Source of the DNA: a virus
Direction: 5' to 3' (one strand)
Virus record (IMG/VR): IMGVR_UViG_3300037234_000153
Span: 1-23,454 of that record
Length of the DNA stretch: 23,454 nt
Within the stretch, counting starts at the first letter, position 1; every line of letters starts with the position of its first letter. This document shows positions 580 through 23,284 of the stretch, piece after piece. The position numbers and the translations under genes are program-made. The notes beneath the pieces are model-generated. The model was given only the letters and a program-made list of their open reading frames with translations, was not told where the DNA came from and did no database searches.

Positions 580-2106
580 TTAAATTATTCTAGTATTGTA
601 ACTTGTCATAAAAGCATTAAGTGTTAGCACTGGCAATGCTTTAGCGAAAGTTAAGTTATCGGAATTATACCCAGAAGCTACCAGTGTTAGCAATGGTAAA
701 CTTTTAACAAGTGTACCTCCTGCTCCGCCTGATACTAAATAAGCGTTTAAGGTCATCACAGGCAATGTACTTGCAAAGCCGTGAAGGCCGCCGACTTTAA
801 ATGATACGTTTAGGGTTATCGTCGGTAATGTATTTGCAAATATAATTGCATTTCCCACTGTCAGGGTTGCGCTCAACGTCAGTAGCGGCAATGTCTTGGC
901 GAGGCTTCCTGTATCTGTGCTTGTAAGTGTTGCGGATAACGTAAGGAGTGGCAGGGTATGTTCTACCTTCGTACCCATCCTTACAGAAACAGTCAGTACA
1001 GGCAACTTGCTGGCGAAATTATTAACATATCCGGAAATCAAAGTCGCACTCAAAGACAGTACTGGCAACGATGAAGCAAAGCTCATGTGGTGATAGCTCT
1101 CTGCGCTTAGTGTCAACACAGGCAGCGAGGCCATAAAGGTTGTTGCAAATGTGGATATAGACGGTGCGTGAAGCGTTAAGCCCATTGTTACTTCATCTGG
1201 GAATACAGACAGTGAAGTAATTACAATAGTTGGAGTATGTAATGAAAAAGCTGCTGAGAGCTCGCTGTCGATTATCGCATCTTGTGCGTTTACAACTACT
1301 GGTGTTTCAAATACTCCTGTAAGTGCTAAGGCATCCGGTGTCACAACTGCATCTTCGGGCATTACTATAGACGGGTCATGCTCCAAAGCGTCTGGTGTTA
1401 CAGTGGCATCCGGGTCTGAAGTACCAAGCCTAGCATCCACATCGTTTGTTTCTATGCCCTGTGGGGAAGTATCAATGGCAGATACATTCTCACTCGTCTT
1501 CATGGTAGATGTGAATTGCCCTGATTGCAGATATAGCTTGTCTCCACTGTACCCACACCATGCAGTGTCGGTTCCATTCCATGTTATACCAGAAGAATTA
1601 GACTCAATACTAAGGATATCTAGGCTATCCTTGATCGTTGAGGTAAATTGCCCTGATTGCAGATATAGCTTCCGGCCACCGTTTCCAGTCCATGGCGTGT
1701 TGATTCCATCCCATGATAAACCGTTTGGGTTTGTATCAATACCACTAGCATCCCAACTGGTTTTCATCGTTGAGGTAAACTGGCCACTCTGTAGGTACAA
1801 CTTATTAGCGGTCTGGCCAGACCATGGGGTATGCGTTCCATCCCACGATATATCCGATACGAAGTCAATGGCAAGGACGTTGATACTGTCCTTCATCACT
1901 GAGGTAAACTGACCACTCTGTAGGTACAAGTCGCTGTTGACATTCCCACACCATGGGGTATTTATTCCATCCCATGATATACCATTTGAGTTAAGTTCCC
2001 AAAAACTGATGTCTTCACTGGTTTTCAGAACAGATGTAAACGTACCGCTTTGTAGATATAACTTGTTTCCTTCGAGCCCAGTCCACGGTGTATCTATTAA
2101 CGCCAT
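580..2106 (-). CDS. Repeat-built tail fibre-like protein (508 aa)
   Basis: The ATG follows AAAGGAG by about 10 bases. The protein has two unrelated repeat arrays. Residues 1-220 hold five copies of a 43-44 residue unit with the core LYLQSGQFTSTxK and the linker SWDGxNTPWxG; LYLQSG begins at residues 16, 60, 103, 147 and 191. Regularly spaced W, G and short beta strands suggest propeller-like blades or a stacked beta structure. Residues 220-290 are an acidic, proline-containing linker (repeated VTPDAL). Residues 325-497 carry nine copies of LPVLTLSA-type strands about 20 residues apart, with two degenerate copies before them. Such arrays are typical of fibre shafts. Position after the tail genes supports a receptor-binding or fibre role, but no catalytic domain or known fibre family is recognised. 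Confidence 0.85.
   Translation of the reverse strand: MALIDTPWTGLEGNKLYLQSGTFTSVLKTSEDISFWELNSNGISWDGINTPWCGNVNSDLYLQSGQFTSVMKDSINVLAIDFVSDISWDGTHTPWSGQTANKLYLQSGQFTSTMKTSWDASGIDTNPNGLSWDGINTPWTGNGGRKLYLQSGQFTSTIKDSLDILSIESNSSGITWNGTDTAWCGYSGDKLYLQSGQFTSTMKTSENVSAIDTSPQGIETNDVDARLGTSDPDATVTPDALEHDPSIVMPEDAVVTPDALALTGVFETPVVVNAQDAIIDSELSAAFSLHTPTIVITSLSVFPDEVTMGLTLHAPSISTFATTFMASLPVLTLSAESYHHMSFASSLPVLSLSATLISGYVNNFASKLPVLTVSVRMGTKVEHTLPLLTLSATLTSTDTGSLAKTLPLLTLSATLTVGNAIIFANTLPTITLNVSFKVGGLHGFASTLPVMTLNAYLVSGGAGGTLVKSLPLLTLVASGYNSDNLTFAKALPVLTLNAFMTSYNTRII
616..1134 (-). repeat. Nine-copy LPVLTLSA protein repeat (~60 bp period)
   Basis: Protein-level repeat in the C-terminal part of the fibre-like gene. 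The core LP(V/L)(L/M)TL(S/N)A begins at about residues 328, 347, 368, 385, 406, 427, 447, 470 and 491, so spacing is 17-23 residues. The linkers vary in length and sequence, which fits beta strands with free loops rather than recent exact DNA duplication. Confidence 0.85.
1447..2103 (-). repeat. Five-copy LYLQSG/WDG protein repeat (~131 bp period)
   Basis: N-terminal array of the fibre-like gene. Five units of 43-44 residues share LYLQSGxFTSxxK and (S/T)W(D/N)Gxxxx(W)xG. The DNA copies are similar but not identical (for example the two stretches around 1780-1800 and 1905-1925 are almost the same), so the array arose by duplication and has diverged. Confidence 0.85.
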
Positions 2107-5991: not shown

Positions 5992-6620
5992 TAAGTATTT
6001 ATTATTGACGCACTCGGTCTTTCCCCAAACCGCTTAGTAAATCTTGCCAGATGTTCCTTTGCTTTGCCAAGGTCTAAAGTCTCAGCGTCCTGCTTCGAAT
6101 ACGCCCGGTGTAGCATATAATCAATCAGTCCCAAATGGTACTGTGTGTCTATTTCCGGAGACACTATGAGTTTGTCCGCAAGTAGCATCGCTTCAAGGGG
6201 AAGTCTTGATATCATCAACGAAAGCGTATCGCTTGCAATCGGACTCTTATATAAGGTGATCTTATTCGTATCGTCCGGGAGCCAGCTCCTTACCGTGCCT
6301 GTATCTACTTCCCAGTTAGAATAGGTCGCATCTAAAACACGACGACTTGTTTTGACCAACGGCTCGGTACCGCTTAACAACTTAGCACGCTTTATAAGAA
6401 GAATTTTTTCGTCTATGCTGTAAGTAGCTGTACCGGAAATAACCGCAATTGTGGCCAAAGCAGAGGTCTTGTCTATTAAGATATTAGCACGAATACACGC
6501 TTCGTTTTCCGCATCATTAGCGTACTCAGTCCACTCAGCCTCAGTCCATAATAAATCTGGTTTGTCTAAGACTTCATCTGCTTGGTTCTGAGCCGCTATT
6601 ATTATTTCGCTTAAATTCAT
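5991..6620 (-). CDS. Head-to-tail adaptor-like protein (209 aa)
   Basis: The ATG follows AAAGGA by five bases. The protein starts with a helical region (MNLSEIIIAAQNQADEVLDK), then WTEAEWTEYANDAENEACIRANILID, a central beta part and a C-terminal helix YHLGLIDYMLHRAYSKQDAET. The combination WTxxEWxxyxNDAExEaxxR and YHxxLixYmLxrAYxKxDaE is one I associate with phage adaptor proteins that extend the portal. Length, location after the coat module and pairing with the 210-aa neighbour fit a short-tailed phage connector. Identification is from sequence pattern, not from a search. Confidence 0.7.
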   Translation of the reverse strand: MNLSEIIIAAQNQADEVLDKPDLLWTEAEWTEYANDAENEACIRANILIDKTSALATIAVISGTATYSIDEKILLIKRAKLLSGTEPLVKTSRRVLDATYSNWEVDTGTVRSWLPDDTNKITLYKSPIASDTLSLMISRLPLEAMLLADKLIVSPEIDTQYHLGLIDYMLHRAYSKQDAETLDLGKAKEHLARFTKRFGERPSASIINT

Positions 6621-8675: not shown

Positions 8676-9107
8676 TTACTCTACCATAAACCCAGCCGCA
8701 AATACTGTGATTACCGCAGCATCAACAACGTGGCCGGGGTCTATGTCAATTGTATCTGCAACGTGATACAGCTTACCGCCAAGCGCTGGGAAAGTATCAC
8801 CCGGCAAGCAGAATGAAGTATCAAGAGCGGTTCCGTCAAGGTCGTAAGACGTAGCTATCCAGCCATTAGCGGCGGTAGCGTCACCGAATACACAAGTTGC
8901 AACCGCACCCTGAACAACGTCCAGACGGACTCCAAAAGTGTGCATAAAGAAACCTGCCGGAATATTAAGCATACGCCCGATATCCGTAGCAACTAACTCG
9001 TTTCCAGAAATAGAAAAGTCGATAGTGTTTTTAAACACCATCTGCTTTCTAGCCGCAGTCTCAGAGACACCAGTTGTGCCACCAAGGGTTAAGTCTATAT
9101 TAGCCAT
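8676..9107 (-). CDS. Capsid-associated protein, paralogue A (143 aa)
   Basis: The ATG at 9107 follows AGGAGG by seven bases; an in-frame extension upstream to 9230 would cross the promoter and stem-loop and is rejected. The protein begins MANIDLTLGGTTGVSETAAR and carries NTIDFSISGNELVATDIGRM, TFGVRLDVVQGA, VFGD and ADTIDIDPGHVVDAAVITVFAAGFM, all matching its downstream paralogue. It sits right after the coat gene and has its own near-consensus promoter and a 5' stem-loop, which suggests a very abundant product. A decoration or minor capsid role is inferred from position and copy style; no direct motif proves it. Confidence 0.75.
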   Translation of the reverse strand: MANIDLTLGGTTGVSETAARKQMVFKNTIDFSISGNELVATDIGRMLNIPAGFFMHTFGVRLDVVQGAVATCVFGDATAANGWIATSYDLDGTALDTSFCLPGDTFPALGGKLYHVADTIDIDPGHVVDAAVITVFAAGFMVE

Positions 9108-9131
9108 TGTTAAACCTCCTGTTAGAAATAT

Positions 9132-9167
9132 TGTCCTGCCCCCTATGGTTTCAATGGGGGCAGGACA
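9132..9167 (-). other. 12-bp stem-loop at the 5' end of a capsid transcript
   Basis: GTCCTGCCCCC (9133-9143) and its exact complement (9156-9166) form an 11-bp GC-rich stem, extended by one T-A pair, with a 12-base loop. It begins at the predicted transcription start of the promoter at 9171-9199, so it would cap the 5' end of the mRNA. The bases after it on the minus strand (AATATTTCT) are only weakly T-rich, so a terminator role for upstream transcripts is possible but less convincing. Confidence 0.75.
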
Positions 9168-9170
9168 TAG

Positions 9171-9199
9171 ATTATATAGTAAAGAATAAAATAAGTCAA
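9171..9199 (-). promoter_or_regulatory. Near-consensus sigma70 promoter for capsid paralogues
   Basis: On the minus strand TTGACT (9199-9194), a 17-base AT-rich spacer and TATAAT (9176-9171) match the sigma70 consensus at 11 of 12 positions. It sits just after the stop of the coat gene and directly before the stem-loop at 9132-9167, giving the capsid-associated gene its own transcript. Confidence 0.8.
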
Positions 9200-9201
9200 G
9201 C

Positions 9202-10077
9202 TTACGCTTTTTTCGCTGGCATGTAAACACCTGAATCTTCGTGTGTTACCTTGTAACCATACACGTTCAATCCACGAATAGCGTCTCCGAAAGTATCCTG
9301 CAATCTGATCGTTTCAGTCTTAACGAACTGAGAAGCGAAACAGACAAAATCCCTCGTACCTGCGATGCAGTGGAAAGTACCAGTTGCGGCGACACCTGTA
9401 AGTGCTATGTTGTTAGATACATAGATCATAAATCTATCTATCATACCAAGTCTACCATTCCTGATAACCGAGGTTAAGTCACCTGACAGAGAAGCGTCTT
9501 TCAAATCACCCTTCTTAATCATTCCAGCAATCCAAGGCGTAATTACCAACCATCTGCCTTCGACTGGGATGTTAAGCTGGTCAAGCTCGGTGCCTGCATC
9601 GACAATCCACTCTAATACGTTAGTCTTTGTGATTACCGTAGAAGCAAGAGAGCTTGTCGCATCTGTGTAGATGTTCGCAAGCACGTCTATATCAATTGTG
9701 ATCTTAGTCTGCTCTGCGGCATCCAGAGTAGTTTCGTCGATTACGCTGATATCAGACTGAGCTTTGTCAATGTCATCGACTTTGAAAGCGTAAACTTTCG
9801 CTTTGTCTATCAAGAGTTCCAGCTTTTCATCTGTTAAGTCCTGATAGTTAATAGTTCCACCAACTTGGTAATCACTTACCACGATGGTAGGCCTTTTACG
9901 GATGATAACCTTGGAACCCTGTCCTTGGATTTCACCCTCCCAGTCGTTGTTGCTTATCGCACCAAATACTGTGGTTGCATAAAATTTAGCTTGGAGCTTT
10001 CTACTCCAAACTTCCGGTATAAAATAACCGTTAGGTAGGTTATTATATCCGGCTGATACTGGAACATTTCTAGGCAT
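9202..10077 (-). CDS. Major capsid (coat) protein, HK97-like fold (291 aa)
   Basis: The ATG follows AAGGAGGG by eight bases. The sequence has features common to short HK97-fold coat proteins: an N-terminal arm (MPRNVPVSAGYNNLPNGYF), a region around residue 20-50 with PEVWSRKLQAKF and NNDWEGEIQGQG, then VIIRKRPTIVVSDY, a central helical part, and a C-terminal beta hairpin with GYKVTHEDSGVYMP. Location immediately after the scaffold gene and in a portal-scaffold-coat order supports the call strongly. No additional insertion domain is apparent at this length, unlike the longer P22 coat. Coat identification is by context plus pattern, not by search. Confidence 0.85.
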   Translation of the reverse strand: MPRNVPVSAGYNNLPNGYFIPEVWSRKLQAKFYATTVFGAISNNDWEGEIQGQGSKVIIRKRPTIVVSDYQVGGTINYQDLTDEKLELLIDKAKVYAFKVDDIDKAQSDISVIDETTLDAAEQTKITIDIDVLANIYTDATSSLASTVITKTNVLEWIVDAGTELDQLNIPVEGRWLVITPWIAGMIKKGDLKDASLSGDLTSVIRNGRLGMIDRFMIYVSNNIALTGVAATGTFHCIAGTRDFVCFASQFVKTETIRLQDTFGDAIRGLNVYGYKVTHEDSGVYMPAKKA

Positions 10078-10204
10078 AGCTAAGCCCTCCTTTATCTTAA
10101 GTTAAAAAAATATTATCAATTTTCACTTTAGATCAATTCGGGAATCATGGCTTGCCTAAGCAAGGTGTTCACGGCCTCTTATCTCTAAATCATACAACTA
10201 CTGC
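10078..10204 (-). other. Leader between scaffold and coat genes
   Basis: This 127-base region carries a strong ribosome site for the coat gene and a small hairpin at 10151-10164 (CTTGC-CTAA-GCAAG), plus an AT-rich part containing TTGATC and TAATAT-like boxes at poor spacing (15). I see no convincing promoter or terminator; a weak promoter or processing site for the coat mRNA is possible. Confidence 0.4.
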
Positions 10205-11281
10205 TTAACGAACTTGTCCATTTCTCATGGCTTCGTTTACTGCTCCTTCATTTTCAGCCCACTCCTTTTCAGTCCAAGCGTGCATCTGCGCCTGCGTGAA
10301 CAAAATAGGCTTGTCATCTGTGTTTACTTCTTTAGCCTTATTAAATTGAGGGGTCTGTAGCTTCTTGGCTTTATCAAGCTTCGAATCGGCGGACTTAGCA
10401 TTTTGCGTTTCGGTACCACCGGGAAGTTTGTAGCCATTGGCCTTTTTAAATTTCGTCAGTAATGATATTACGTCTTTTGTTTTACCGTTGTTACGGATAG
10501 ATTGTGCCCCAATTCTTTCTACTGAGTCGAGTCCTTCAATCCATTCGTCCAATAGCGGTTCTTGGGATATTTCGCCAAAATCTGGATGTGCGGCTGCAAT
10601 GGTCTCGTAATGATTATTCTCTTTACTTACCTTTGCGTCTTCATCTCTTTTCCTCTCTCTTTCTTCCTGCTTATCAAGCCTTTCCTGCAAGGCGTTATTC
10701 TGCGCTGCCTGCCTCTGCATCATCTTAATCATAGGCTCTGCTATTTCAGGATATTCCTGTCTTAGCTTTTCAAGGTCGCTGTCGATTTCTTCCGTTGTCT
10801 GATTTAGCGAAGTGTCAACTTCTTCTTTTTCCTTGTTTATAGGGTCTGACTTTGGAGCCTCAGTGGCTTTTTGGTCTACCAATGTCCTGAGATCATCGTT
10901 TTCCTTCTTAAGCCTGTTCTGTTCTTCCACGGCATCTTTAGCACTTTTATTGCTGGTGTGCATTTTGTTCTGAGCCGCACTTATCCTCTTGGTCGCATTT
11001 TCAACCGTAAGGTCTTTCGTTAAGTCTTCCTCGCCTACTGCCGGTTCTTCCTTTTTAGGTTCCTCTTTAGCCGGTTCTTCCTTTTTGGGTTCTTCTTCCT
11101 TTTTAGGTTCTTCTTTTGGAGGCTCTTCGTCAAGGGGAGTTTTACCGTCCTCTTGCAAGCCTTGGTGTTCATAGAATAGCTTGTTTGCCTCAGCGTCTTC
11201 TTTTGTTGCGTAATCAACTATGGCTTGACTGACTGTATCAACCATAGGAATTACTTCTTCTGTAGCTTTTGTTGGTGACAT
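10205..11281 (-). CDS. Scaffolding protein (358 aa)
   Basis: The ATG follows AAGGAG by ten bases. The protein is very charged and mostly helical. Residues 51-82 hold tandem EEPKK-type repeats (DEEPPKEEPKK and relatives), followed by a long coiled coil of K, E, Q and R (for example AAQNKMHTSNKSAKDAVEEQ near 100 and KEEVDTSLNQTTEEIDSDLE near 155, then ERLDKQEERERKRDEDAK near 205). The C-terminus is basic and ends GQVR. A highly charged, repeat-containing helical protein between portal and coat is the expected form of a phage scaffold, which binds coat subunits during head assembly and is later released. No protease motif is seen. Confidence 0.8.
   Translation of the reverse strand: MSPTKATEEVIPMVDTVSQAIVDYATKEDAEANKLFYEHQGLQEDGKTPLDEEPPKEEPKKEEEPKKEEPAKEEPKKEEPAVGEEDLTKDLTVENATKRISAAQNKMHTSNKSAKDAVEEQNRLKKENDDLRTLVDQKATEAPKSDPINKEKEEVDTSLNQTTEEIDSDLEKLRQEYPEIAEPMIKMMQRQAAQNNALQERLDKQEERERKRDEDAKVSKENNHYETIAAAHPDFGEISQEPLLDEWIEGLDSVERIGAQSIRNNGKTKDVISLLTKFKKANGYKLPGGTETQNAKSADSKLDKAKKLQTPQFNKAKEVNTDDKPILFTQAQMHAWTEKEWAENEGAVNEAMRNGQVR
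11042..11128 (-). repeat. EEPKK tandem repeat in scaffold gene
   Basis: Low-complexity tandem repeat at residues 52-80 of the scaffold. Units are EEP followed by KK, AK or PK, with a DNA period close to 15-18 bases (CTTCCTTTTT-type units on the plus strand). It looks like a flexible linker created by slippage. Confidence 0.75.
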
Positions 11282-11524: not shown

Positions 11525-13630
11525 TTACCCCTTCTTATTTAAAATTTTAACTGGTTTTGCCTTTGCTGTTTTACTTGGTTTGCCTCCTTCCTCTTTCTTT
11601 TCCTTCCTTGCATTTACCATGTCTACTTCATGCTTCTCACGGTTTACCTTCCGCTTTTCCTTGATATCCTCTGCCAGTGCTATTCTTCTCTGACGGAGGA
11701 ACTCTTTATCATATTCTATCTTGGAATTGTTTTTGTTTTCCTCACTGTTCAATACATCTACCTTGGCTCGTAATTCCGCATTTTCAAGCTCAGCTTTTTC
11801 AATTGCCAGCTCTTTTATTCTTTCTTCCTGCGGGTCTGGCGTATTAAGCTCTTTCCTTATTTCTTTATCGGTCTTGATGTCTTCTTCGTCCAAGCCCATA
11901 TTCCTAGCTATCTTACGTAATATTCCGGGACGCTTTACAAGCGGCATATCAAATTCGTTTGCGGTTATACTTAAGAACTCCGTCATAAGGCGGCTCTGTA
12001 CTTCCTTGGCTACTAATATACTAGAGCCCAGCGCATTGATTTTCATATCGCCTTTTATTTTGTCGTCATCGCTCCAATCCATATTGAAGTTGTAATACGA
12101 TTTAATCAAAGGCTTTACGAGGAAATCGTCTATATTTTTTACAACCGACTTGATAACTACCTGTGCTGCTCCCATCAACATAGACATACCACTCGCTGTT
12201 TCCGCTCCGGGAGTACTTTCTTGAGTCGGTTGTCCAGATATCAAAGATGGCAGATTTGTTTCGTCATCAATGAAATTCCTTACCATCATAATGATCTGTA
12301 TGAGATCATTACCCATACTTGGTACTTTATGCACCGTTATTGCATTATATGCTTCGTCTCCACCGCTGCGATACCATATCTTCCACGGCTTAATTTTATT
12401 GGCGTTATTAACAGACCTGTCATCAAGCCTGTCAACGTTTATCTCTAGCTGGTTCCCGGTCATTGCGACATCATCTAAAAGTCTTCGGAAAGCGGCGTTA
12501 AGCACGTCTTGGGAGTCCATCATTATCTCTGGCACCCCAACACCCCATAGCTGATTAGAGACTTGCTCATACGGGAATACAAAGTACTTCTTGCCCTTGT
12601 TAATGCTTTCGTCTATGAGTATCTTTATTACTTTATGCCCGGATATCCAAACATTAGCTTGGTACCCCTGTTTTAACTGGTCTTCGCCAACATCGAAACC
12701 GGCATCTCTAAGGTCTTGCCCGTCCACGTATCCCCAGTATTCAAGGACTTCGTAATACCCGCTACTGTCGAAATGCTGGATATTACCAAGGGACTGTCTT
12801 TCTATTTCATGGTGTTCTCTATTGTGATTTCCATTCGGGTAGTCTATTACTAAATCATCTATGACGTCTTCTCTAAACCCAGTGGAGTTTTTAAGGTCTC
12901 TTATTTCTTCCTTGTTTAAAATATGTCTTTCATAGGTGCCTATAGAATTATCGGCGCTATTAGCGTTTATGTCAAAGTAGACATCAAACGGGGAAGGCTG
13001 AGACATTCCGGGAACAATATGGTCTTCCTGCACTAACTCCCAATCACCAATGCCTTGCACCCAATTCTTTTTACGCTCTACCTTTACCATCCCGGCTTTA
13101 ATAACTCCGGAACCAAAGGTACATGCGTCTTTAATAGCAGCTCTTATAAGAGCATCTGCATCGCCTTCAACCAATTGGTCGTTGATTCTCTCAGACATCC
13201 TACTGGTTGTTTCTGTAAGTACTTCTTCTGTTGTTAATCTCTCCCCGGATTCTTCGTCTATAAAGTCCTCCTCGTCCCATATCTCATTATTCAGCACAGG
13301 ATAAGGAGTAGGCTTTATGCCCCAGAACTTATGGCCACTGGCCGGGAAGTAAATATCCACAAGCCTTGCATACGCCGCCGTTGTCTTCATTCTGGTAATG
13401 CCTATGTACTGAGTAGAACCATTTGGGTCGAACTGCGCTCTTACATCTGCATCATATACAGAGTTATAAGCCCTTAAGTTTTTCAGCCATTGTTCTTCTA
13501 TTTTACGCTTACGGTCACGCCAATAAGTAAATCTTTTATACAGCTTTGCGCCTAACGCATATATTTCCGACTCGTCATTAATCTCAACTATAGGTATTTT
13601 AACCTTGTCTTTGTCTTTTATTTCAGGCAT
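11525..13630 (-). CDS. Portal protein (701 aa)
   Basis: The ATG overlaps the TerL stop (TAATG). The sequence is typical of a podovirus-type portal: an N-terminal helical part with YKRFTYWRDRKRKIEEQWLKNLRAY (residues about 30-55), a conserved central region with KTTAAYARLVDIYFPASGHKFW (about 80-105), DPNGSTQYIG, and a helical end. The C-terminus, from about residue 590 to 701, is a coiled coil (RIKELAIEKAELENAELRAK, then KEKRKVNREKHEVDMVNARK) ending in a lysine-rich tail. Length near 700 resembles P22-type portals. It forms the dodecameric channel through which DNA enters. It follows TerL and precedes scaffold and coat, as expected. Confidence 0.85.
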   Translation of the reverse strand: MPEIKDKDKVKIPIVEINDESEIYALGAKLYKRFTYWRDRKRKIEEQWLKNLRAYNSVYDADVRAQFDPNGSTQYIGITRMKTTAAYARLVDIYFPASGHKFWGIKPTPYPVLNNEIWDEEDFIDEESGERLTTEEVLTETTSRMSERINDQLVEGDADALIRAAIKDACTFGSGVIKAGMVKVERKKNWVQGIGDWELVQEDHIVPGMSQPSPFDVYFDINANSADNSIGTYERHILNKEEIRDLKNSTGFREDVIDDLVIDYPNGNHNREHHEIERQSLGNIQHFDSSGYYEVLEYWGYVDGQDLRDAGFDVGEDQLKQGYQANVWISGHKVIKILIDESINKGKKYFVFPYEQVSNQLWGVGVPEIMMDSQDVLNAAFRRLLDDVAMTGNQLEINVDRLDDRSVNNANKIKPWKIWYRSGGDEAYNAITVHKVPSMGNDLIQIIMMVRNFIDDETNLPSLISGQPTQESTPGAETASGMSMLMGAAQVVIKSVVKNIDDFLVKPLIKSYYNFNMDWSDDDKIKGDMKINALGSSILVAKEVQSRLMTEFLSITANEFDMPLVKRPGILRKIARNMGLDEEDIKTDKEIRKELNTPDPQEERIKELAIEKAELENAELRAKVDVLNSEENKNNSKIEYDKEFLRQRRIALAEDIKEKRKVNREKHEVDMVNARKEKKEEGGKPSKTAKAKPVKILNKKG

Positions 13631-15429
13631 TAATTTTTACTCCTAGCTATATAATCAGCCGCAGATTCGTAATTAGCTCTTTTGCTTTTATTTTTCTTTA
13701 TTCCTTCATCTCTTTGGTTCCTTGCTTTAGGAATTGTGTACAACATTTCAAGAGCGATTGCCATGCTTATAACCAAATCGTCAAAACAGCCAAGCTTTGC
13801 ACCATAAGTACAGGTGCCGCTATCGCCTTCATGGATGGTGTACTCTCCCATTTGTTTAATTGTATCTTTACTAACAACACCGCACTCACCGTCTCGCAGA
13901 GCACTTCGCAATCCGTCGATTATTTTATACTTTGATTTCTTAGTCGTAAGCCATCCGGCCTGTTTTTGCTTCTTACCATCTCCATGGCTGTCTAACTTCT
14001 CTCTCTGGTACAGGTTAGCGTAATTAGCTTTCTTAAGAGTAGTTATAGTCGTCAGCCCGTGGTTGTTAGCTTCCACGCCCATCAAGGCTTTGTTGTAATA
14101 CCGACCTAAATAGTTCAGGATATCACCAAATGTATCCGGGTCTATCTTGCCGTGTATTTGCGCTACCTGTTCACCATAAGGCAGCTTGAGAACATCGCAG
14201 CATGTAAAGTCGCCTTGGATTAAGCCCTCAGCGACATCTGCGCCAATGACGTATTTAGCACCGGGTATGGGTTTTTCCCATATCTTGAGCATACCCTTTG
14301 GTTCGGCTTCAAACCTGCCATTGTGCATATTGAAGTCGCCCACGAATAAAGGCTCAAAACAATCCTCCTTAGCGTTCCTGAGATCGGATGCAGGGAATAC
14401 TTGTTTGCCGGAATAAATGAAAGCTTCCTCGGAAGTCGCAGGATACCACTGTCGGAAAAATTCCTCCTTTGTGTAACCCATCGGTGCCGACATCGTACTG
14501 ATTTTCCATCGTCGCCATGCCAACTGTTCATACGAGACCATTGCGCCGCTTGGAAGCTCCTGTTTAAGTAGCCATTCTTCGTCATCATCTAAACTGTCCT
14601 TAATTTCCTGTCTCTGCTCGTTTGTAAGAATTTTACTGTACTGACTGTGGTAGAACCAAGGAATGAATATCCTGAGATAATCAGGGTCTTTACCCTTTGC
14701 TTCTTGTGCTTCTGAGTCTCTCCATGTGTTATAAAAGATGCCGCCGACTCCATTTGCCGTTGATTCCATTATAACTTGAGTTCCAAGTATTGCCGGGTAT
14801 TCAGAAGGCACACTTTCCAGAAGTCCGGCCACGGTATTAAGGGCACTGTCTTTAAAGAAAGCATATTCTGATAAATGGATATAGTGCGTTGTAATACCAA
14901 GCCCACCTTTGGACTCACACGTTTTTACGTCATACCTGCTTTTCAGCCCGCTTTCACCGCTACCCTTTGGCGTGTCAAATATCAGTGCTTTTTCATTGCT
15001 GGCTCTGGTTTGTGGCCTCACAGCCGCCGGTGCGTTTTCGTGGAACGTCTTCACCATGTTGAATAAGTTATCCCGGCTCAAATCCGCCTCTGTCATAATC
15101 ACAGCACGTTTACCTTTTCTATAACTGATTTTGTGGTAAAACCACGATTCAACAAACGTGGAACCGCCCCACTGCCTACACTTAAGCATGATAGCTCGGA
15201 TGTATCCTTTGCGCTCCAACTCTTTCTTCAAAAGATTATGAACGTATAATTGAGACTCATTCAGTTTGAACGGTACCAATTGCCCTTGCTTGTTTGTTAT
15301 TTTATGACAGCGTGGAGCATAATAGAGGTAGTCATTAGCAAGGCGTTCCCTCATGGCTTTACGCTTTGCGTCCATATCAGTCTCGACCACTCCAAGTTCT
15401 TCGTCTGTTATTTCTATTGTCGATTCCAT
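13630..15429 (-). CDS. terL: Terminase large subunit, ATPase and nuclease (599 aa)
   Basis: The ATG at 15429 overlaps the TAA of the zinc-knuckle gene (TAATG). The N-terminal ATPase has a Walker A variant at residues 83-91 (KCRQWGGST), a Walker B-like strand ending in HLSEYA (185-190, catalytic E188) and a coupling motif MESTANG (221-227). The C-terminal nuclease has the three RNase H-like acidic residues: D398 in GADVAEG, E453 in VEANNHG and D550/D551 in FDDLVISMA. The architecture is that of the phage packaging motor that pumps DNA into the procapsid and cuts the concatemer. A small terminase subunit was not recognised with confidence. Confidence 0.95.
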   Translation of the reverse strand: MESTIEITDEELGVVETDMDAKRKAMRERLANDYLYYAPRCHKITNKQGQLVPFKLNESQLYVHNLLKKELERKGYIRAIMLKCRQWGGSTFVESWFYHKISYRKGKRAVIMTEADLSRDNLFNMVKTFHENAPAAVRPQTRASNEKALIFDTPKGSGESGLKSRYDVKTCESKGGLGITTHYIHLSEYAFFKDSALNTVAGLLESVPSEYPAILGTQVIMESTANGVGGIFYNTWRDSEAQEAKGKDPDYLRIFIPWFYHSQYSKILTNEQRQEIKDSLDDDEEWLLKQELPSGAMVSYEQLAWRRWKISTMSAPMGYTKEEFFRQWYPATSEEAFIYSGKQVFPASDLRNAKEDCFEPLFVGDFNMHNGRFEAEPKGMLKIWEKPIPGAKYVIGADVAEGLIQGDFTCCDVLKLPYGEQVAQIHGKIDPDTFGDILNYLGRYYNKALMGVEANNHGLTTITTLKKANYANLYQREKLDSHGDGKKQKQAGWLTTKKSKYKIIDGLRSALRDGECGVVSKDTIKQMGEYTIHEGDSGTCTYGAKLGCFDDLVISMAIALEMLYTIPKARNQRDEGIKKNKSKRANYESAADYIARSKN

Positions 15430-17864: not shown

Positions 17865-17899
17865 AGCGGAGTTATTTAAGTTTTTGGGTTAATTATTAA

Positions 17900-18421
17900 T
17901 TAAGGTCTTGGCCTAATTAAGTTCACGGTGCCTGCTGTGATATTTACAACGCCTACTACTTCCTTAAACATCACAGGTTTACCGGGTGCGTCTTGGTCTT
18001 TAGCCTTGGCACTTACTTCCAAGCTGTAATCCGACTGGTTGTTAGCAGCGTCATAAGCAGTGAGAACCGCAAAATACAACGTGCCCTTTATCAGGCCGGG
18101 CAGCTTGGCGGTTGTTACATTTTTTACGTCTGTAATTCTGTCGTAACTTCCGGATGTAAGGCCGCTATGTATCCTATAGCCAGTCACTCCATCGCTGGCC
18201 GGGTTTGCGTTCCATTGAAACCTTAAAGAGCCGTCATTGCTTTGACAAAAAGCAGACGAAGAATAGCACATCAAGAAAATAAATACAAGAGAAATAATCT
18301 TTTTCTTTATGCCGAACTTACTACGGAAGCCCTCTTGAAACTTCTCGAAGTTTTTCTTTTGCTTCTTGTTGATCTTAAGCCCTGTACCGGGTTCTTTTTT
18401 CTTCTTTTTATCCTTTGCCAT
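17900..18421 (-). CDS. FN3-domain protein with basic start and signal-like segment (173 aa)
   Basis: The ATG follows GGGAGGA by seven bases. The first 40 residues are strongly basic (KDKKKKKEPGTGLKINKKQK), then a hydrophobic segment (residues 41-58, ending SSSAFC) looks like a signal or membrane anchor. Residues 65-140 match a fibronectin type III domain: LRFQWNANPASDGVTGYRIH, then GSYDRITDVKNVTTAKLPGL and YFAVLTAYDAANNQSDYSLEV. The C-terminus is VNLIRPRP. FN3 domains on phage proteins usually bind surface carbohydrates. The long basic region before a membrane segment is unusual and suggests an N-in anchor with the FN3 domain outside. Confidence 0.75.
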   Translation of the reverse strand: MAKDKKKKKEPGTGLKINKKQKKNFEKFQEGFRSKFGIKKKIISLVFIFLMCYSSSAFCQSNDGSLRFQWNANPASDGVTGYRIHSGLTSGSYDRITDVKNVTTAKLPGLIKGTLYFAVLTAYDAANNQSDYSLEVSAKAKDQDAPGKPVMFKEVVGVVNITAGTVNLIRPRP

Positions 18422-21326: not shown

Positions 21327-22223
21327 TTAATAACCTTCTTTGATTAACATGATTGAAAAATGTACTGAGACTGCGGCTGTTGAAGAAGTCACTTTGGCCA
21401 TGTAAAGAATATCGGTCTTACCGGGGAAGCTATCCATGGGAGCTTTGAAATCAGTAGGGTTATGCCCGGTTACTCCAACGTAGTGCACTACTGTTCTTAT
21501 TGGAGTAAAAGGACTGGATGTTACGTCAATTCCCTGTCGTGACATAATCACTACGTCTACGGACTTTGTACTGTCAACGTCAATGTCTTGCTGTATGATA
21601 AAAGCATTGTATCCGTCCGGGACTGTATAGCATCCTATTTCCGATTGTCCCTGCGGTAGCGGTACGTCTGCTATTGTACTCCATATAGCTCCGGCACCTG
21701 AAACTCTAATTGACAACGCACCGACATGACTACCTGCGGTTTGTGTTCCATATGTCCCGCTTGCGCTGACAGCCCAGCGATAAACCCTTAATAAACTCGT
21801 AGGTATAGCAACGGCGGTTAGGCCATCGGTTGCATGAGCTGCTACGCTCTGTGTTAATTCGTCATAATTTGCGTCAATGCCTGTTACTGTATATGCCCAC
21901 GAGCCTATGTCGTCAAGTGCATCGGCGGTGTCGTCACTTACTATTTCCAAGGCAGTAGCGGCAGTAGGCGTTTGATAGGCAAGGCTTACAGTTAGGGGCG
22001 CAAGCGTGGTTCCAACTGTTCCATGGCCAAACTTGTGTACAATGCTGTGGCCGGGAATATTGCCTTTTTCTACTTCTGTATAGAAGTGCTCAGGTTGTCC
22101 GGCTGTACCTGACCATGCTCTTTGGCCACCGCCTGCTTGAGCTGAGGGGAAGGGCTGGAAAACAAGACAAGAAGCGGCTAAGACCGCCCATACTACAATT
22201 GTTAAAAAACACCATTTTCGCAT
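21327..22223 (-). CDS. Secreted virion-like beta protein (298 aa)
   Basis: The ATG at 22223 is preceded by GGAGGA eight bases upstream; a TTG at 22238 would put that site inside the gene, so it is rejected. Residues 1-30 are a Sec signal peptide (MRKWCFLTIVVWAVLAASCL then ...SAQA, cleavage after AQA30). The mature part is beta-rich: ALEIVSDDTADALDDIGSWA, then YTVTGIDANYDELTQSVAAH and LLRVYRWAVSASGTYGTQTA, a repeat style I associate with virion proteins that resemble each other across marine and soil podophages. No enzyme motif. A Sec signal on such a protein is odd, because virion parts are normally cytoplasmic. It may instead be surface-displayed. It has its own promoter and operator. Confidence 0.7.
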   Translation of the reverse strand: MRKWCFLTIVVWAVLAASCLVFQPFPSAQAGGGQRAWSGTAGQPEHFYTEVEKGNIPGHSIVHKFGHGTVGTTLAPLTVSLAYQTPTAATALEIVSDDTADALDDIGSWAYTVTGIDANYDELTQSVAAHATDGLTAVAIPTSLLRVYRWAVSASGTYGTQTAGSHVGALSIRVSGAGAIWSTIADVPLPQGQSEIGCYTVPDGYNAFIIQQDIDVDSTKSVDVVIMSRQGIDVTSSPFTPIRTVVHYVGVTGHNPTDFKAPMDSFPGKTDILYMAKVTSSTAAVSVHFSIMLIKEGY

Positions 22224-22262
22224 AAGACTATCCTCCAAGGGGGGTTATAAAGACTGTAAATC

Positions 22263-22294
22263 GTATTTACTCTGTGTATACGCAGAGTAAATAC
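22263..22294. promoter_or_regulatory. 32-bp palindrome, candidate operator
   Basis: The sequence GTATTTACTCTG, T, GTATAC, G, CAGAGTAAATAC reads the same on both strands except for one central mismatch pair (22275/22282). It covers the -10 region of the promoter at 22288-22316 and lies between two minus-strand genes. A palindrome of this length with no T-run after it is more like a repressor or other dimeric protein site than a terminator. Confidence 0.7.
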
Positions 22295-22316
22295 CATAAA
22301 AAACTTCTATAGTCAA
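22288..22316 (-). promoter_or_regulatory. Putative sigma70 promoter for the secreted protein gene
   Basis: On the minus strand TTGACT (22316-22311), overlapping the stop of the preceding gene, is 17 bases from TATTTA (22293-22288), which matches TATAAT only in its first three bases. The -10 box lies in the palindrome, so a bound dimer would block polymerase. Confidence 0.5.
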
Positions 22317-22471
22317 GTCTTATTTTCCTTAAGCGGGCAGAAGCGGTGAACTTTGTCTTCTATTGCTTCGTCGGTTACGTCTTCGCCGGTCTTTGCGCAA
22401 ATAAGCTGGAAATACGCTATAAAGGCGAAACTGCTTTGGTTTCTCAGGTGATCGCACAATAGACAGGTCAC
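22313..22471 (-). CDS. Small protein with CxxC start (52 aa)
   Basis: The start is a GTG at 22471, which overlaps the upstream TGA (GTGA). The sequence MTCLLCDHLRNQSSFAFIAY has a CxxC (C3, C6), then FQLICAKTGEDVTDEAIEDK and the end RFCPLKENKT with two more cysteines (C25, C45). An AAGG lies 12-13 bases upstream. Four cysteines allow zinc binding. It is the last gene of a chain of four small genes and ends at the promoter of the secreted protein gene. Function unknown. Confidence 0.65.
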   Translation of the reverse strand: MTCLLCDHLRNQSSFAFIAYFQLICAKTGEDVTDEAIEDKVHRFCPLKENKT

Positions 22472-22674
22472 TGCCAATATTTGCCTTCTTTCTTCATAAA
22501 ATACGAGCTGTTCTGCTTAAACCTTGCAATCGCTATCAAGGCTTCGATTTTGAATATTAACTTCATTACCTGCTTGCCGTGATTGAAATTAAGGCCACAA
22601 TCAAAGCAGCTACACCAATCAAGCTTAATACCTGCTCCTAAGTGAGTTGAATTACAAAGCGGGCATTTTCTCAT
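22468..22674 (-). CDS. Zinc-ribbon protein (68 aa)
   Basis: The ATG overlaps the upstream stop (ATGA). CPLC (C4, C7) followed by CSCFDC (C21, C23, C26) forms a zinc-ribbon-like motif, with GLNFNHGK after the second pair; the rest is a helix (LIFKIEALIAIARFKQNSSY) and a basic end. Such proteins often bind nucleic acids or a host polymerase. The family is not identified. Neighbours on both sides carry similar cysteine motifs. Confidence 0.7.
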   Translation of the reverse strand: MRKCPLCNSTHLGAGIKLDWCSCFDCGLNFNHGKQVMKLIFKIEALIAIARFKQNSSYFMKKEGKYWQ

Positions 22675-23200: not shown

Positions 23201-23284
23201 TGGCGGAAGACCAGAGAATCGAACCCTGTACGCTTTTACACGCCACGGTGTTCAAGACCGCTTGGCACCATTGCCGCATCTTCC
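23201..23284 (-). tRNA. tRNA-Ser (anticodon UGA)
   Basis: The minus strand folds into a class II tRNA. The 7-bp acceptor stem pairs GGAAGAT with GTCTTCC, followed by G and an encoded CCA. The anticodon stem GCGGT/ACCGT holds the loop CTTGAAC with anticodon UGA. The variable arm is about 16 bases with a 4-bp stem. The T arm CAGGG-TTCGATT-CTCTG is normal. The D arm (GGC, 6-base loop, GCC) is short. The acceptor and anticodon parts resemble bacterial tRNA-Ser(UGA). It decodes UCA. Confidence 0.92.

Follow-up and report, generated by a model that had tools for sequence, protein, structure and literature searches.

Lambda CI/Cro-type operators comprise multiple 17-bp sites situated beside the repressor gene, and the operator of QacR, a repressor of the TetR family, overlaps the transcription start point. 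The QacR operator, going by the title of Grkovic et al. 2001 as cited in PMC4424350, is a long palindrome occupied by a pair of repressor dimers. A second TetR-family repressor, MbdR of Azoarcus, leaves a footprint that runs from -16 to +18, taking in the start point as well as the -10 box; its operators have ATAC and GTAT on their flanks (PMC4424350).

We analyzed a 23,454-base IMG/VR record of a tailed phage (hereafter the window), the minus strand of which encodes a terminase, an SU10-like portal protein and a major head protein, and found a palindrome that is probably a repressor operator lying over a sigma70-type extended -10 promoter. Like the QacR operator it is a long, near-perfect palindrome at a promoter; it differs from it in that the left arm itself constitutes the -10 box and in that no TetR-family protein was found among the phage ORFs scanned. 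Its placement nearly equals that of the MbdR footprint, whereas its outer arms read TATTTA/TAAATA around a GNGTAWACAC core in place of the ATAC and GTAT of MbdR. With the lambda CI/Cro operators it shares the position of a dyad over a phage sigma70 promoter, but here there is one site of ~30 bp per contig and no repressor gene was recognized among the 44 ORFs of G003, a 41-kb contig of a relative; on these two grounds an operator of the lambda type was rejected. Literature searches returned no lytic-phage precedent for such an operator. The mechanism would be an ordinary one, an operator over a promoter being of a common and already known kind; what the locus offers is a precise candidate promoter-operator for an uncultured group of tailed phages without a known regulator, and a dyad motif that could serve as bait by which the binding protein might be fished out.

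Geometry of the palindrome and its promoter

The palindrome, GTATTTACTCTGTGTATACGCAGAGTAAATAC, occupies positions 22263-22294 (minus strand) and forms 15 of 16 base pairs about a centre between 22278 and 22279, the single mismatched pair being the fourth from the centre. A first-pass annotation of this DNA had counted 31 of 32 positions as paired; the count is 30 of 32, and its description of a near-perfect palindrome holds. This is the top dyad of the entire window and, extended to 22260-22297, it also ranks first among the inverted repeats, with 17 of 19 pairs. The exact sequence occurs once in the window record, in agreement with the remark that this is the only such site there. Among 300 versions of the window generated by a first-order Markov model, the best loop-free dyad reached 11-14 of 16 pairs, and 15 was never attained. 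No intrinsic terminator (a G+C-rich stem with a T-run) was called at the palindrome on either strand, and a T-run is absent after it, as the annotation had also observed.

On the minus strand all elements of the previously described TTGACT-17-TATTTA promoter are present: the -35 box TTGACT at 22311-22316, with TTGnnn at an equal 17-nt distance in five relatives, and an extended -10 element, TGG plus TATTTA, at 22288-22296, in which TATTTA (22293-22288) doubles as the left arm of the dyad. Transcription would be expected to start 6-9 nt after the -10 box, at 22278-22282, on or adjoining the dyad centre; the palindrome covers both the -10 box and this expected start point, extending from -10 to about +17 relative to it. 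A promoter-prediction tool placed the promoter (22316-22288) below its consensus cut-off because the -10 box ends in A. The first gene behind it, of the phrog_8198 family and of unknown function (21327-22223, minus strand), encodes a protein with a signal-peptide-like N-terminal stretch on reading of the sequence. Its start codon is likely to be the ATG at 22223-22221, served by the ribosome binding site GGAGGA (22231-22236), rather than the TTG at 22238; the dyad lies 40 bp upstream of this ATG, and the terminase gene follows ~7 kb downstream of the palindrome. The genes on both flanks are co-oriented and the palindrome is therefore not at a divergence. Given this co-orientation and the absence of the dyad from two relatives (see below), the suggested role as a key switch separating two blocks of genes is plausible at most.

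The promoter block in related phages

Relatives were gathered by IMG/VR protein searches with the phrog_8198 gene product and the terminase. The combination of promoter and dyad recurs before the homologous phrog_8198 gene in four other contigs of the phage group, giving five with the window: L005 (block at 1519), L002 (9951), L018/L028 (4156/9351) and L008/L029 (4194/9708). The conservation that the first-pass annotation had proposed to look for in related phages is thus present. In L008/L029 one small ORF separates the block from the gene, while in the others the block stands directly before it; the phrog_8198 proteins of these relatives are 42-63% identical to that of the window. The relatives' pattern, looser than that of the window, is TTGnnn followed by 17 nt ending in ATGG and then the dyad TAWTTA-n4/5-GNGTAWACAC-n3/4-TAAWTA. 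By reading of the sequences, each of the five contigs has a 17-nt spacer, TATGG or AATGG runs into a -10 box and left arm of TATTTA, TATTTT or TAATTA, and the GNGTAWACAC core is followed by a right arm of TAAATA, TAAAATA or TAATTA.

The dyads of L005 (14/16 pairs), L002 (12/16) and L029 (11/15) are the best, or near-tied best, of their own contigs; that of L018/L028 has only 9/16 pairs unless shifted by one base, and near-perfect symmetry is limited to the window and L005. Across the four diverged sites the halves of the dyad show ungapped identities of 0.63 and 0.58, versus 0.33-0.37 for the flanks and spacer, the -10 box alone accounting for part of the left-arm conservation and the sample being five sites of shared ancestry from one phage group. 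Direct computation yielded the dyad and its placement over the promoter, as well as its single copy and its conservation at the corresponding place in relatives. The dyad is missing from two of the seven contigs compared, L016/L031 and L003. The former keeps the promoter, TTGATT-17-TACTTA with TGC before the -10 box; the latter has, by eye, at most a weak TTGCCT-17-TAGAAG further upstream and not before the phrog_8198 gene itself. In the remoter relatives of the gene that were inspected (L025-L045) the block is not directly upstream.

The annotation had also suggested searching for copies elsewhere in the genome, and none was found, the dyad being single-copy in the window record as in the relatives searched; a single-site operator is, however, normal. 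Besides members of the group, a scan of IMG/VR with the composite pattern recovered five stretches, of which four are identical in sequence; as they show neither the promoter setting nor a right arm, they were judged to be chance matches. No credible copy outside this phage group came from motif scans of IMG/VR, whether exact or relaxed, and a BLAST search of named phages with the DNA of this region gave no match. Further protein searches recovered relatives at only 26-29% identity for the phrog_8198 gene and about 30% for the terminase, and a search of cellular genomes with the phrog_8198 gene gave a single weak Phycisphaerales match.

Several other features were noted. A tRNA-Ser(tga) gene lies upstream of the promoter (window 23201-23284, minus strand), and L005, L028 and L029 have similar DNA upstream of theirs. 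Small, otherwise different proteins encoded upstream of the promoter share a tail peptide, RF(K/M)(Q/K/E)NSSY(W/F), which is near the C-terminus in most bearers (window 22468-22674, minus strand; L002 about 9885-9915; L005 122-298; L018 3935-4108; L016 3895-4335). In L003 the phrog_8198 gene is present in two tandem copies (9029-10777), with the operator not directly before them.

A candidate operator and alternative readings

The locus combines a symmetric DNA site overlapping promoter elements with conservation above the flanking DNA at orthologous promoters. The dyad centre is the most conserved part, invariant or nearly so across sites, and the outer arms vary symmetrically: TATTTA/TAAATA in the window, TAATTA/TAATTA in L029 and TATTTTAC/GTAAAATA in L002. 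Such changes, as expected from symmetric protein contacts, point to a site that acts as DNA. Together with an RNA hairpin that is not kept, they argue for a dimeric DNA-binding protein in preference to an RNA structure. The earlier reading as an operator for a dimeric or tetrameric regulator gains from conservation at the same promoter, while no binding protein was identified among the phage ORFs scanned. From this arrangement we infer that the promoter is active and starts transcription where expected, that it is repressed and not activated through the dyad, and that a binding protein exists. The promoter would start the phrog_8198 gene and probably also the structural genes that follow in the same orientation. 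A homodimeric or dimer-of-dimers protein would recognize TAWTTA-n4/5-GNGTAWACAC-n3/4-TAAWTA and, by occupying the start point together with the -10 box, would bar RNA polymerase until removed or released. This protein might be an uncharacterized phage-encoded one or a host regulator. A bolder form, in which an apparently lytic group would use one bipartite 30-bp operator, bound by an undescribed and possibly host regulator, to place its structural genes under a signal sensed by the host, we regard as unlikely.

The same dyad and weak promoter could instead bind a phage-encoded factor, an activator or a phage-modified polymerase, needed for opening. The promoter is indeed weak by consensus, as against the strong divergent promoters of L029 (6213-6241 and 6380-6407), which match at 12 and 11 of 12 positions as for early genes, and a weak late promoter dependent on a factor would fit. 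However, proteins bound over the span of the dyad, -10 to about +17, usually block, and the -35 box, 17-nt spacing and extended -10 element are all retained, even in L016 which lacks the dyad; we hold this reading, too, to be improbable.

Little credence is likewise due to an RNA element, whereby read-through transcripts would fold the palindrome into a leader hairpin affecting stability, processing or translation. The hairpin is strong in the window (-17 kcal/mol, z -6.7) and L005 (-10.4 kcal/mol, z -4.7), but it is not kept in the other relatives, where folding compared with shuffled sequences gave z 0.01 (L018), 0.37 (L008) and -2.0 (L002). Moreover, the most conserved part is the centre, which as the would-be RNA loop would need no conservation, and the promoter's own transcript, starting near the centre, would carry only half of the palindrome. 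No Rfam family reached its gathering score at the palindrome (best weak match RsaH, 22.4 bits versus 50).

It is very unlikely that the site serves a recombinase or another DNA-processing protein, with the promoter overlap incidental. A 30-bp site that is nearly symmetric and has TA at its centre would suit such a protein, and the window and L005 share ~80% DNA identity over 22219-22411 with downstream proteins only 42% identical, which implies that exchange took place beside the block. Against this, the site is single in each contig, its register with the promoter elements is constant in diverged phages, and no recombinase was recognized adjoining it. That the palindrome arose by chance or is inherited functionless sequence, as its looser symmetry outside the window and L005 might suggest, is scarcely tenable given the shuffle statistics and the dyad identity raised over the flanks across diverged phages.

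Gene content of the phage group

The ORFs of G003 that were searched for the repressor of the proposed operator include those for a DnaD-like loader, a primase/helicase, an SSB, a polynucleotide kinase, a Holliday junction resolvase and a DarB-like giant protein. The product of L029 2521-2748 has a possible helix-turn-helix by eye (AKQLGRSVQAVHALRNR), and Pfam gave no match for it. The strong consensus divergent promoters of G003/L029 suggest that a host-type polymerase probably serves the early genes of G003. The same divergent region of L029 contains a hairpin of 15 pairs with a 3-base loop (6067-6099). An N4-like system of hairpin promoter and virion RNA polymerase was considered and rejected: two relatives encode giant proteins of the DarB-like/polyvalent kind, which have helicase domains and gave no RNA polymerase match. 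The polyvalent DarB-like protein of L078 (998-15253) is 4751 aa long and carries a pyrophosphatase domain and LPD1; L075 (187-9537) encodes a 3116-aa version without matches to either.

Elsewhere in the window, intergenic stretches that are AT-rich and bear TTAATTAAG/TTATTTAA motifs recur before small structural-region genes (17870-17960, with counterparts in L007, L016, L017 and L018) and possibly represent a second type of promoter or signal. Finally, the window encodes a 508-aa protein (580-2106, minus strand) in which repeats of the KLYLQSGQFTSTMKTS type occur; L077 has a homologue that also bears repeats (12604-14187).
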